64,000 nt of DNA, from the NCBI RefSeq assembly GCF_963675165.1, contig NC_087377.1, positions 6,279,122-6,343,121 of the forward strand, written 5' to 3'. Origin of the DNA: Halichondria panicea (taxonomy: Eukaryota > Porifera > Demospongiae > Suberitida > Halichondriidae). Under the pieces are notes generated by a model, which was not told the DNA's origin, searched no databases, and saw only the letters and a program-made list of their open reading frames with translations. A program made the translations under genes and the position numbers. This document shows positions 20,106-63,600 of the stretch, in pieces. Numbering within the stretch: the stretch's first letter is position 1; the number at the start of each line of letters is the position of its first letter.

Positions 20106-20315
20106 TACCGTATAGCGCGAAATTTTCACGGATTTCGTGGGTTTAGCAATCTTACCACGAAAATTGTTCTTTAATTACAATTATCTGCTATAACATGCAA
20201 AGATTTAAAGGCGTGGCTTCCGGTAAGCAGTCATTCCGCGAACATTGTGCAACGAAATGCTTTTAAAGGCCAATCGACGAAATATAAGTGACTCGAAAAG
20301 TTTGCGCTTATGGAG
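20106..20315. mobile_element. MITE, CCGTATAG family, one degraded end
   Basis: Starts TACCGTATAGCGCGAAATTT and matches the reverse of 60905-61130 throughout, including 'ggcgtggcttccggtaagca' and 'gaacattgtgcaacgaaatg'. The far end has diverged ('gtttgcgcttatgg' in place of the intact tip). Confidence 0.75.
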
Positions 20316-56281: not shown

Positions 56282-57044
56282 TAGACTCGCAAGCCACTCC
56301 CTTTTCTCTGATTGGACGGGGGCGGGAGAAAAGGGACTGGTGACTCTGGGACACATTTTGTGTCTCTACCAGAATTTGGGTAGAGATTATTCATTGATTT
56401 TTCCAGGTGATCCAAAAATTGCGTGAGGTTAAGTAGAATTGCGTAGCCTGCAAAAGTGATCGCGGGCTTCTTAGCTACAGTTTAAGAATGGATGCTAGTG
56501 CTAGAAAAGAGAAGATGATGGAGTAATAACATCATCAGGCATTCAGCTAGGATATAGTCATCTAAGACACCAGCAGAGATTAGCTTGTTTTAGTTTTACG
56601 TGATGAGAACTGGCAGCCGAAAGTCATTGGTTGCCTAAAGCTTTTAATAACCTGTACAATACAAGACAGATAATGGCAGACGGCAGCAGTTGAATTGAGA
56701 GTAGTCAGACTTGTACAAGCTGTCTTAAATCGCTGCCACTCCTCGGTTCAAAGAAGGACTGCCAAGATTTCTACGTTCATCAGCTGTTCCATGCTAATCC
56801 ACAAGTTGTGGCACAACAGACACTGGTACAAGGATCTATAAAATCAAAAGGCTGGCTAGATAGATCTGTATACTTGTCTTCTGTGTGTCTTTAGCTTTTG
56901 ACGCATCAGAATAAATTGGATAATTTGCACGTGACATTAATATTTAATAGCATTCCTGATTTACACAAGCTGTAGCCCAGAGTCACCAGTCCCTTTTCTC
57001 CCGCCCCCGTCCAATCAGAGAAAAGGGAGTGGCTTGCGAGTCTA
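56282..57044. mobile_element. Non-autonomous member of the RecQ-bearing transposon family
   Basis: 69-bp perfect inverted ends start TAGACTCGCAAGCCACTCCC, with the 9-bp duplication AGTCAAGCC on both sides (56273-56281, 57045-57053). The next 100 bp inside the left end match the helicase-start end of 58954-61382 ('gtgtctctaccagaatttgg', 'attgcgtagcctgcaa'), down to a sequence like the helicase start codon region ('agaatggatg'). The right interior matches the other end ('ctgatttacacaagctgtag'). It is therefore an internal-deletion derivative of a full-length relative. Confidence 0.88.
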
Positions 57045-57672: not shown

Positions 57673-60600
57673 ATGGGGTCACAAGGACTGGTGGCACTCG
57701 TGACAGCTGTCGCTTTCATACTATCACATACTGTAATTGTATTGACAGGTGAGAATTAATTATTATTGTAAAGAACTCTGTATCAGTGCAACTGCTGTTT
57801 TTTAATGCCGTAGAGTCCAATAAAGGAGGCCAACATTTTTAATTAGGCCAGACGAAGTAAATTGCTTGATTCTCAGGCCCGCTTGCTTCGTTTTTTGCCA
57901 CCGCTTGCTCCTTTTTAAAATCCTGGCCTAAACGACCTTTGACCTATTTATGCGGGAAGACTTTATTAACAGAGGAGGAGGAACCACTTGACCTTAGATC
58001 AATGTCATTGATTTTGTGCCCATGAACAGTCTACACTAAGACTTCATATCACAATTTATATGGGGCCTTATGGGCGTTAATGATATTCATAGACCGCGGT
58101 TAGATAGCTAACACAAAATGGTAGTTTCTTTATGAAGAATAACTCTGCAACAATATAATTATAACAAGAAGTAATATTAATGATATAGAGTTGATGCTTA
58201 ATAAATAAGCTACTGAATGATATAAAAATCAAGCTCTAAAAGTGATTATAGAATGATTATTGAGAGAAACAAAATAAACAATTTCTTAGTTTACAGCAAC
58301 TTTGATTTCTGGGCAAAATAGTTCTGAGGGAGCTGGACAAGTATAAACAGGCTAGACTATAAGACAACACTGGTAACTACTAGTACAGCTCTTAAAAACA
58401 CCAATGACTCAGGCTTACATCAGATACAACAAAGTAAACATTGACAAAAATAAGTAACTTCAATTACTTGCCTGCCTGCCACTTGAGTATCCATTTCTTG
58501 AAAGTACATAGATAGCTAATAGCATACTTGAAGTTAGTATTTCCAAAGAACTAAGCAGCTAGCACTTGCTAATTTTTTTTATACATAGTCTTGTGCACTG
58601 GAACCTGGCTTGCACTCCTGGGCCTGGGTATAGATGCTGGAAATACTGAAAAACTTGTTGCTTTATCCAATTCTAATAGTAAACAGTGACGTCACAGAAA
58701 CCATAATTAAATATACTGAGCGTTTCTGTAGTACCGTATATCTTCTAATTTATCGGACTTTTTACAGACTTTTATAAAAAATTAATAATGATAAGCAAAT
58801 TCATTGCATAGCTATAGCAACAGTGACGTCAAACAGTAGTTATAAGCATATTCATCGAAGAAGCATGACAGGAAGTAGCTCTAAACATAGTACAAGCCAG
58901 TTAAACTAGGCCTCTCGTGGTATATTTGATTTACGAGTAATCAGATAAACCAGTAGACTCGCAAGCCACTCCCTTTTCTCTGATTGGACGGGGGCGGGAG
59001 AAAAGGGACTGGTGACTCTGGGCTACAGCTTGTGTAAATCAGGAATGCTATTACGTAATACTGTCACATGATTGTGCAATTTATTTTTATGCGTACGTAC
59101 GTTGTACGTAATAATTATTCCGAGTTCAGAGTCAGAGTTGAAATACAATACAGTGCATGTTGGGAAAGCAATCGGACCACTTTTTCACATGATGAATTCA
59201 TTTGACAAGAACAACAAAGTTTCTTCTGAATCTGGAAAACACAGTACTAGAGGTACAAAGAAGGATTTGGAAGAGATTGTAAAGGAACTTTTTATTAATT
59301 CCAAAGTATTTACAGATACAGCAGGCAGAGAGCACAAATTCTTCCCGAAATTTAGACCAAACATTATGAGTGGTATTGACATGATCAAATTAAAGCAATG
59401 GATGAATACACGATTTCAGAAGCTTATTACGTATCAGTGAACCATCTTTTATATAATATACTTATTATCATCTTCAATTTATAAATAACGGTTGCGAGCT
59501 ATTGTGAACATAATATACATTTACACACAGATGTACAAATATCACAGCATTTACAGTTTCCGATACTAAGTTTTCCTGTCTGATCAAAATCCCTCAACAA
59601 TAGTGTTCTGCGACAAGTGTCTATGTTCTTACAATATTCCTTCATACTTACATCAACACGGTCAAATTTAAAATCATTTCCATTATAATATAAAGTAGCA
59701 GTTGCTTTTTTACCATCTCTGCCAGCTCTCCCAGTTTCCTGAATGTAAGATTCAATGTCGTTTGGAGGTCCCCAGTGTATAATTCTTCGAATATTGGAGC
59801 AATCCAGTCCCATACCAAATGCTACAGTTGCTACAACAATCTTAAGAGGGCTAGTAACGTTAGTAAAAGACTTGATAATACATTCTTTGACATTCGGTAC
59901 TGTGCAGGCAGTGAACATATCTACAAGTCTGAACTTTGCTAGGTCTGGGGCTCCAATTGGTTCAACATTTTCACATCCAATTCCGTTCTTTAAAAACAGA
60001 TAAATATGTGCCACATCATCGTAAGACCGACAAAATATTATCACTCTATCCATTGATAGGCGACAACTTCTCACTTCTTCCACAATTGGTGCAAATGTTT
60101 CTTCTATATCACCTTCTTTTCTGTTCACATGGTACTTGATATTAGGCTTGTTTGGAGACACAGACACCACGGTTGGGTTAACCATTGATAGAATTTGACA
60201 AATGGCCGTTCGACTACTTAAAGTAGCTGTCGCAGTCAATGCCATTATGTGTACGCTTGCTGGTATTAAACTTCTAACTTCTACTAAATTTGAGAACTCC
60301 CTCCTGAATTCAGTTCCCCTTCAACAAAAAAGAGAACGTGAATATAAACATGCACGTACTTCGATTGGGTATGACACTTACCATTTTTTCACACAATGCG
60401 CTTCGTCAATGACGAATGCAACCAGTTTGTCCGCAAACACAGGAGACTGAAGCATATCTCTCCATTCGAGATTGCACAAAAGACTTTCTGGACTAAAAAA
60501 CATCACCTGGTGTTCTCCCATTTTAACCTAGTCACGCTCCATCTCGCTGACATCACCTAACATCAATAAGTATACATGGGGATTTGTTGAGGGTTACTAT

Positions 60601-63600
60601 AGTTATCAACCAGAGATATCTAGATCAACCTGCTATATATAGCGCTATTAATTAAAACTATATACCTGAATAAACTGCTGTGATTCCTCTGGTCCTTATG
60701 GCTTCAACTTGATCCTTCATGAGAGAAATCAATGGGCTTATAACTATCACCAGAGATCCACTTGTATTGTACAAGTTGTCAAAAGCTTTAGGCAAAATCC
60801 AGTAACACAATGACTTTCCACTGCCAGTGGGGAGGCTGATAAACACATCATTTCCCATCATAAAATGAAACACAGCTAATCTCTGCTGGTCTCTTAGACT
60901 ACTACCGTATAGCGCGAAATTTTCGAGGCACTTATATTTCGTGGATTGGCCTCTAAAAGCCATTTCGTTGCACAATGTTCGCGGAATGACTGCTTACCGG
61001 AAGCCACGCCTTTAAATCTTGCACGTTATAGCAGGTAAAGAACGATTTTCGTGGACTTAATTTTCGTGTAGGATTGCTAACCCACGAAATCCACGAAAAT
61101 TAAGCCCCTCGAAAATTTCGCGCTATACGGTATATCCCAGCTGAATGGCTGATGTAGTGATTACTTCTTGAATCTTAGACACATCCATTCTAAGAAACCC
61201 GCGAGCAATTGTTGCAGGCTACGCAATTCTACTACCTCACGCAATGTTTGAATCACGTGAAGAATAACTATGAATAACCTCTACCCAAATTCTGGTAGAG
61301 ACACAAAACTGGTCCCAGAGTCACCAGTCCCTTTTCTCCCGCCCCCGTCCAATCAGAGAAAAGGGAGTGGCTTGCGAGTCTAATAAACCAGAGGCGCAGC
61401 CGAGTTGGTTTATCAGATTTCTCTCGCGTGTAAATCAAATATACCACTTGAGGCCATAATTTAACTATAACTTAATGCAGGTACGGGAGGGGGTGAAGTG
61501 AAATTTTTTGCAATTTGCTCACAATTTCACCTTCAAACTTTCATATTAATGAGTGAATACTGAATACGAAAGAGTTAATACAAAAACTCGTTCAAAATCG
61601 TAGGAGCAGGGGGGGCAGCCCAGGCATGCCTGACCAGTATTTCTAGCTTGTCTTTATAGATGTAGTCTACAGTACCAGTAGTCTCTTGTCTAGCTAAATT
61701 ATGCTTAGCTACTACAAAAACTGGCACTATTTAGAATCTGATGACATCACAATCTATGATTAAGTTCATAGTAATAACTATCTGTTCATGCACTGCACTG
61801 GAATCACAATGCGTACCCAGACTGCACTGAGAGTGGAGGGGATAAGGCTGCTTCCTTGCAACTGGCTGGAAAAGTCTGAGATCTGCTCTATGTTGCAGCA
61901 GCATGCACAGTTGCAAACATTGCGCAAGGCCTGACTCAGCAACAGCAATAGTTGACCTATGCACTTTAAATTAGTATATGCTTTGTTGAAAGTATAATAG
62001 CTAGGCCACACCAAATTAATCTTATTGTTTCACGGATTTTCAATCCATTTTAATTTTAAGATTTTCAATCCACTTCCGTTCGTTGTGACGTCATTGTTTT
62101 GCTGACGTTGTTATCCGGATCCGCCAGATACCGGCGGATGGCAAACAGTCGATACCAGACCCACTCTTCGAGGAAGTGCAGCTTGGGATCAGGGCTAGTA
62201 ACAGCACTTGCCTTAAATTGCGACATCACCTGATTATGTTTCGCCCCCCGCGATATTTATGGATAATTATAAATATCATTATTGCTATGTTTGAAGTGGA
62301 TTGAAGGAAGTAGATAGAAGATTCGCAAGCACATCTGATAGTATTCTGATGAAAAAAAGGGCTATCTTGCTAGCGTACTTTCAAGAGTACATTATACAAA
62401 ACAAAATTACTAGCACGTACTTAATTTACAAATTTGCTAAAATAATTAGTACCCGTTGTGATACCGTATAATTATTATCTTCTAATTTATAGCGGACACT
62501 TCTAATCACTCTTTTGGGCAATTGTCGTTGTTCTAATACAACAAACACTCCAGTATTTACATTTGTTTGGACAATACCTTGAAAAGTTGAGTTACCATTC
62601 ATACACGGCAAGTAAGACTTAGAGTGCTGCAGTTAGATAGCTTTGAGTAGCTAGTTTTAGATAGCTAGTGCTACTATTCAGTCGTACCCTGTTCTATTAA
62701 ACTTAGCTAGCTTGCATGCAGCTGCTTGCTTGTTTTAATTATTCCGGACATTTCGCATGCTCTATAAAAGTCTGTTCCAATTATACTAGGACAATTTCTA
62801 TTTTTTGCTGTCGGATAAATTAAAAGATATAGGTAGTAACAAGAGTAGATAAGAGTAAGAGTGTTGAACTGCTTGTAACAGCAATTTCCTGCTCCTGCGG
62901 CATCACTTGATAGTATCAGTAATAATTAGTTATGTTAGCAACACTTCCCAGAAACCACACATGCTGCGATTGCACAGTTCAGTGCTACAAACCACAGACC
63001 ACAGTTTACTTAACAGCACTCATTAATTGAATAGTGCCGACGGTGATGACGCATGTCAAGGCAAATGCGGTCCCACGATTACTACAGCAGTTCAACACTC
63101 TTACTCTTATCTACTCTTGGTAGTAACAATAGTGACGACAGTGATGCCGCAATTTAAAACAAATGTCGTTCCAGGTTTACTACAGGAGTTCAACACTCTT
63201 ACTCTTATCTACTCTTGGTGTACTGAATAGGGCTTTATTTAGAGTAACGCAGACACGTACGGTACATTCAATGATTTTTGACACACGATTAGAGTAATTT
63301 TTCTTTTAAATTTTGTATGTAGCATCCGAATTTACGATGCAACCAGTATCAGTGGTACAGGCCCAAAGGGTAGATGCAGTGTTCGAGTGTCGATATACTG
63401 GAGCACAAAGTTACAATTGGAGACTCAATGGAGAGTTTCCCACTGAGGATACTTATCCACCTGGTGTGACTGCTACCCCATCGACTAATGATACCCCAGC
63501 AACACTGACCATCCCAGCCATAGCACATTACAACAACACTGTTGTCCAATGTGAGGCAGTGGTTAGAGACGGACGAGCGTTGATACCCACATTGTCAGTA

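Follow-up and report, generated by a model that had tools for sequence, protein, structure and literature searches.

In the 64,000-nucleotide stretch of the Halichondria panicea genome analysed here (contig NC_087377.1, positions 6,279,122 to 6,343,121; hereafter the window), a 2,429-bp insertion at 58954-61382 is very probably a non-autonomous element derived by deletion from a DNA transposon of the AcademH type. Its genes are a helicase gene of the RecQ type and the tail of a DUF6589 gene, the latter encoding a putative transposase. Coordinates refer to DNA read 5' to 3' in forward-strand numbering. The insertion is delimited by terminal inverted repeats (TIRs) and a target-site duplication:

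58945-58953, no strand: target-site duplication, left copy, ATAAACCAG
58954-59022, plus strand: left TIR, 69 bp, first letters TAG; 239 genome matches of its first 27 bases
61314-61382, minus strand: right TIR, 69 bp, from an inverted-repeat search
61383-61391, no strand: target-site duplication, right copy, ATAAACCAG

The two arms (69 nt each) are 100% complementary and the 9-bp duplication is perfect at both flanks, as the original prediction had claimed. The target of the insertion is a small palindromic repeat whose inverted outer arm measures 26 bp (58909-58953 plus 61383-61455). A paralogous copy of this repeat, at positions 2757-2912 of another locus (L072), is unoccupied: 140 of 159 columns are identical and the alignment is continuous through the insertion point. 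The L072 copy is a direct empty site for the window insertion. The claim of transposition is thus borne out by the perfect duplication, by the empty site, and by the existence of a repeated family.

Between the ends, the minus strand carries a three-exon helicase gene with the domains DEAD, Helicase_C and RecQ_Zn_bind, which agrees with the RecQ-family helicase originally placed within the inverted ends. The coding features are:

61133-61188, minus strand: helicase exon 1, 5' piece, starting MDVSKIQ and ending QLGY (exon reading)
60903-61132, no strand: 230-bp miniature inverted-repeat transposable element (MITE) in helicase exon 1, with 45-bp inverted ends, 91% complementary, and TA at both edges (inverted-repeat search)
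60665-60902, minus strand: helicase exon 1, 3' piece, with the LPTGSGKS motif, end boundary approximate (domain search and exon reading)
60382-60556, minus strand: helicase exon 2, start boundary approximate, with the DEAH box DEAHCVKKW and, at 60528-60530, a TAG in frame (exon reading)
59499-60317, minus strand: helicase exon 3, Helicase_C and RecQ_Zn_bind, open frame (open reading frame, ORF, and domain search)
59159-59440, plus strand: last ~92 residues and stop codon of the DUF6589 gene (putative transposase), remainder missing (tblastn with the L071 exon, ORF end)

The helicase motifs are distributed over the exons, with LPTGSGKS in exon 1, DEAHC in exon 2, and QETGRAGRDG followed by a cysteine-rich tail in exon 3. 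The gene had been described as well preserved, but it is broken: the MITE splits exon 1 after QLGY, and exon 2 has an in-frame stop. Exon 3 is open. The genome has 107 stretches that match helicases of this type, counting fragments. Among 120 relatives listed, a protein of Amphimedon queenslandica (P0222) is 50% identical to the window helicase. Another database protein, P0135, is 96% identical, from which it follows that close relatives of this helicase family exist outside the present assembly. The MITE itself, with ends TACCGTATAGCGCGAAATTTTCG, is also found at 20121-20308 of the window, and more copies lie beside three other loci (L017, L029, and L058).

The plus-strand tail was recognized by its match to the DUF6589 exon of the closest relative, L071 (37 of 92 residues identical by tblastn); there was no Pfam match for the tail ORF itself. 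In the relatives, the last exon of the DUF6589 gene covers most of profile PF20231, and the gene is convergent to the helicase. The original prediction had proposed to look for a transposase gene between a DUF6589-like tail and the helicase, but no separate one is to be sought there, the tail being what remains of the end of the DUF6589 gene. A complete-looking relative in the same genome, L073, has the full arrangement. It is 5,605 bp long, with 74-bp TIRs and a 9-bp duplication (CCTTCGAAC), and its two genes lie tail to tail on opposite strands: a RecQ-like helicase and a DUF6589 gene that seems to have several exons. In L071, no convincing paired end was found by script, and the left terminus was read by eye. 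In a domain scan of six ORFs of L073 and three of L071 (a subset of their ORFs), no nuclease family scored above its cut-off; one match in L071, to a family of inactive endonucleases, stayed below threshold.

The pairing of the two genes is regular. They occupy opposite strands in all nine loci tested, one of which is a near-duplicate. The identity matrices of helicase and DUF6589 proteins are correlated with r 0.943 across 7 families (Mantel test on rounded identities, with C45 left out; r 0.98 with C45), and only 5 of 5,040 orderings, the true one included, reach as high a value. Since the identities of both genes diverge in step, the helicase looks like a long-standing partner rather than a recent capture.

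DUF6589 is abundant here, with 92 matches in this genome and 0 in 14 control genomes, and one database search returned 875 matches. In alignment A2, a GGDQLT motif is present in 10 of the 14 first rows, and an ED[WF]H motif in 5 of the 14 by script and in three more by eye; the aspartates of the two motifs are 33 residues apart in the three rows measured. These acidic residues fit two positions of a DDE site, which suggests a putative DDE enzyme whose third residue is not fixed. DUF6589 matches also occur in very long open frames (1,617-1,732 amino acids, at C9:1650827, C14:4797543, and C3:3629098), unlike the split genes described here.

The window terminus belongs to a family of its own. The genome searched comprises 131 Mb in 39 contigs, and the 239 matches to the first 27 bases were obtained at no more than 3 mismatches, a reversed control giving 0. 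Loci were taken for 30 of 40 terminus matches, which represent 19 distinct places. A duplication is present in 15 of the 15 places with both ends in the sequence taken (9 bp in 13, 10 bp in 2); in 4 of the 19, paired ends were not found within the stretch taken around each. Among the pairs listed, many span ~760 bp, and one such copy lies in the window:

56282-57044, no strand: 763-bp miniature of the window family (terminus match); its flanks, inspected by eye, show the duplication AGTCAAGCC

This miniature has subterminal sequence in common with the large element and, in addition, a stretch of helicase exon 1 at 67% identity, and it therefore probably derives from a helicase-bearing parent. 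The helicase-region DNA of the window element occurs once at full identity, and the next helicase relative has 55% protein identity, so no second large coding member of the window element's family, and no autonomous partner, was found in the assembly. Collecting longer copies by their terminus, as had been proposed, succeeded in retrieving the family but yielded no copy with an intact transposase in a partial search, outside which lie, for example, the longer pairs listed at C1:8761451 (4,319 bp) and C5:7281064 (1,854 bp). A 6,985-bp TIR pair in L072 was considered as a longer copy and rejected: it is a miniature split by ~6.2 kb of other sequence that has no ORF of at least 100 amino acids.

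Other families of the genome illustrate different states of such elements. Six copies of one family (L052-L057) are 99.9-100% identical over ~3 kb, a sign of recent movement. Family D (L042 and L046-L051) consists of ~2.1-kb elements with the helicase and little else, leaving no room for a DUF6589 gene. Each of the seven family D helicase matches taken carries one stop, which indicates that an element can carry a defective helicase with it when it spreads, as the window copy does. Duplications of 9 bp were seen by eye in the six family D copies with both ends shown (of eight listed; not L048), in two family B copies, and in L040 and L056. L054 and L055/L085 lie in inverted orientation on C10, with ~22 kb between them. 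The sequence TGGTTCTAT flanks one copy on its inner side and the other on its outer side, a pattern expected if copies had undergone inversion, but there is no match between the reciprocal flanks. Finally, at 62840-63225 of the window, AAGAGTAGATAAGAGTAAGAGTGTTGAACTGC is repeated in opposite orientation (by eye), probably marking another small inverted-repeat element.

Terminal inverted repeats are a trait of the Academ superfamily, whose AcademX lineage has an XPG nuclease; Kolobok transposons duplicate TTAA, and Helitrons have neither TIRs nor a target duplication. The window copy shows the 9-bp duplication, the TIRs (69 bp, and 74 bp in L073) and a DEAD/Helicase_C helicase, albeit a broken one. 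According to the part of the source cited, AcademH duplicates 9 or 10 bp of its target and AcademX, its sister lineage in the superfamily, 3 or 4 bp, and these lengths are linked to the encoded helicase in the former and to the nuclease that replaces it in the latter (PMC10045372). AcademH (Kojima, 2020) is reported from animals and fungi, by title as cited (PMC10045372, PMC10799480), and a cited passage gives DEAD and Helicase_C together as domains of AcademH, KolobokH and Helitron (PMC10799480). The window element resembles AcademH in being a helicase-encoding DNA transposon with a duplication of this length in an animal; it differs in having lost most of the first gene and in its broken helicase. 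Helitrons also encode a helicase, but the cited text describes them as using an HUH nuclease and single-stranded transposition (PMC12730594). DNA transposons carrying a RecQ helicase had been thought to form no described class; the published helicase and 9- or 10-bp duplications of AcademH (PMC10045372) and the RecQ helicase of KolobokH (PMC9587614), as given in the cited passages, show that such transposons were already on record.

The RecQ domains, with RECQ1, WRN and bacterial RecQ as the nearest solved structures, would also suit a host RecQ gene that has a miniature element on either side, the two being independent and their duplications unrelated. We give this virtually no credence, given the perfect matching duplication, the paralogous empty site in L072, the 107 helicase stretches in the genome and the presence of helicase and DUF6589 genes within one TIR pair in L073. 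In its single-copy form, a lone host helicase between two MITEs, which the original prediction had named as the case against itself, it is excluded by the duplication, the empty site, the 107 stretches and the miniature with its piece of exon 1. A helicase-carrying element of another superfamily is very improbable. KolobokH, a DNA transposon that encodes a RecQ helicase, would be the candidate, and in one rhodophyte Kolobok a RecQ helicase lies on the complementary strand; however, KolobokH appears only from fungi in the cited text and belongs to another transposase superfamily (PMC9587614). The duplications of the present family, 9-10 bp of varied sequence, are also at odds with the TTAA of Kolobok.

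An AcademH identity is weakened by several points. The placement follows the published description (helicase, duplication length, and TIRs) and not Academ transposase sequences. The RNase H-like fold of the DUF6589 protein is putative and its catalytic E is not fixed, and a DUF6589 protein (P0129) has no sequence match to any solved structure. Among the relatives, the duplication of L041 matches over 8 bp only (by eye), and L054 and L055 (C10) lack matching duplications at their own two ends. These elements, DUF6589 gene and helicase together, could constitute a new superfamily with a superficial likeness to AcademH, since that likeness is by description and not by an Academ reference sequence, and DUF6589 is not mentioned by name in the literature searched. 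We consider this very unlikely, because the combination of a helicase with a 9- or 10-bp duplication is, in the cited text, the published mark that sets AcademH apart from AcademX (PMC10045372), and AcademH is known from animals by title.

The ends of these elements are structured. In the window the structures are:

58966-59012, plus strand: subterminal palindrome of the left TIR, CCACTCCCTTTTCTC, 17-nt loop, GAGAAAAGGGACTGG (palindrome test)
61324-61370, minus strand: subterminal palindrome of the right TIR, same sequence as the left (palindrome test)

Families with placeable ends start with TAG and have a palindrome within the first 60 bases. For bases 1-60 of 12 termini, the combined p is 1.2e-11 against dinucleotide shuffles, a value that, like the other palindrome p values, is after the fact (the idea came from the same termini), that comes from related families whose termini are not independent, and that benefits from termini G, H, I and M having been chosen visually in the sequence upstream. 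Outside this count are L033, L079 and L080, where no terminus could be placed, and L076, where no exon 1 was seen. Farther in, the same test gives p 7.8e-5 (bases 61-120), 0.69 (121-180) and 1 (181-240), and outside the element 0.088 and 0.92. For the eight termini placed by TIRs (window, L073) or by copy boundaries, the Fisher p is 3.6e-8. The palindrome is centred at base 24-28.5 in 11 of the 12 termini, the maximum in 300 base shuffles being 5 of 12. The window terminus is the outlier in position (36), yet its palindrome is the highest-scoring.

The two arms match each other better within a terminus than across families: 8.1 versus 5.1 for the first palindrome, with 0 of 20,000 permutations as high, and 5.9 versus 4.0 for the second (p 1e-4), D_R having been left out of this test as nearly the same as B. 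For the first palindrome, no foreign arm pairs better than the 3' arm of the same terminus (ties included) in 9 of 12 cases in the narrow test and 7 of 12 in the wide test; for the second, this holds in 5 of 12. The arm score of the window terminus is below the cross mean in the narrow test (4.0 versus 4.7) and high in the wide one (13.0). Individual termini vary. By shuffling, C_R (p 0.49), M (0.23) and B (0.06) are not significant, and B (0.08) and C_R (0.57) are ordinary when compared with 60-mers drawn at random from the window. When DNA folding energy is the measure, p is <=0.024 at 6 of 8 ends, with C_L (0.10) and C_R (0.43) above. The second palindrome has p <=0.03 in 5 of 12 termini (B, C_R, D_L, F, and I). 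The left and right stems of family D differ and both have low folding energy (p 0.002 and 0.024); those of family C also differ, the right one not being significant alone. The stems thus change between families, and self-complementarity tends to stay.

The ends might accordingly be recognized by shape: a palindrome about 25 bp in, with a second at bases 63-92 in several cases, could fold into hairpins with the help of the helicase and then be bound or cut by the transposase. This is a speculative proposal that we regard as rather doubtful. To our knowledge, a transposase-helicase pair acting on folded ends has not been described as a mode of transposition for DNA transposons with TIRs, and no description of palindromes or hairpins in Academ ends was found in a literature search that did not cover the original AcademH description. 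More simply, the palindromes could be sites of two-fold symmetry to which a dimeric protein binds; strict recognition of sequence is made less likely, though still conceivable, by the families in which the left and right stems are not alike. An RNA-level effect or a mutational origin could also give rise to palindromes. Flipping of terminal hairpins, suggested by L033 and L079, was discarded, the flipped pieces looking like parts of neighbouring elements. Separately, upstream of the helicase on the reverse strand of L078 there is a seemingly perfect palindrome, TAGCCTCGATTCCAAGCGGCCTGGAATCGAGGCTA, which looks like two ends of an element joined directly, with no body between them.

To judge from the anatomy, the most likely mechanism is one in which the DUF6589 protein would act as a DDE-type transposase that recognizes the palindromic termini of both ends, cuts the ends and joins them to the target with a 9-bp (at times 10-bp) stagger, the gaps being filled by host repair. 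Copies without a working transposase, such as the window copy, would move in trans. Less surely, the RecQ-like helicase would take part in the same reaction, either by opening the palindromic ends or by unwinding the transposon-target junction before repair; such aid to transposition is plausible, but the helicase of the window copy is broken. Analogy with other DNA transposons suggests that the internal deletion of the window copy may have arisen by interrupted repair copying.

The window insertion is real but of a known type; what appears to be new is the palindromic structure of the ends and the clear pairing of DUF6589 with the helicase. These data connect a widespread, unnamed protein family with a type of transposon that has its own helicase, and they show that the two genes diverged in parallel. 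Should the palindromic ends prove important, they would offer a direct handle on why this lineage has a helicase where its sister lineage has a nuclease.

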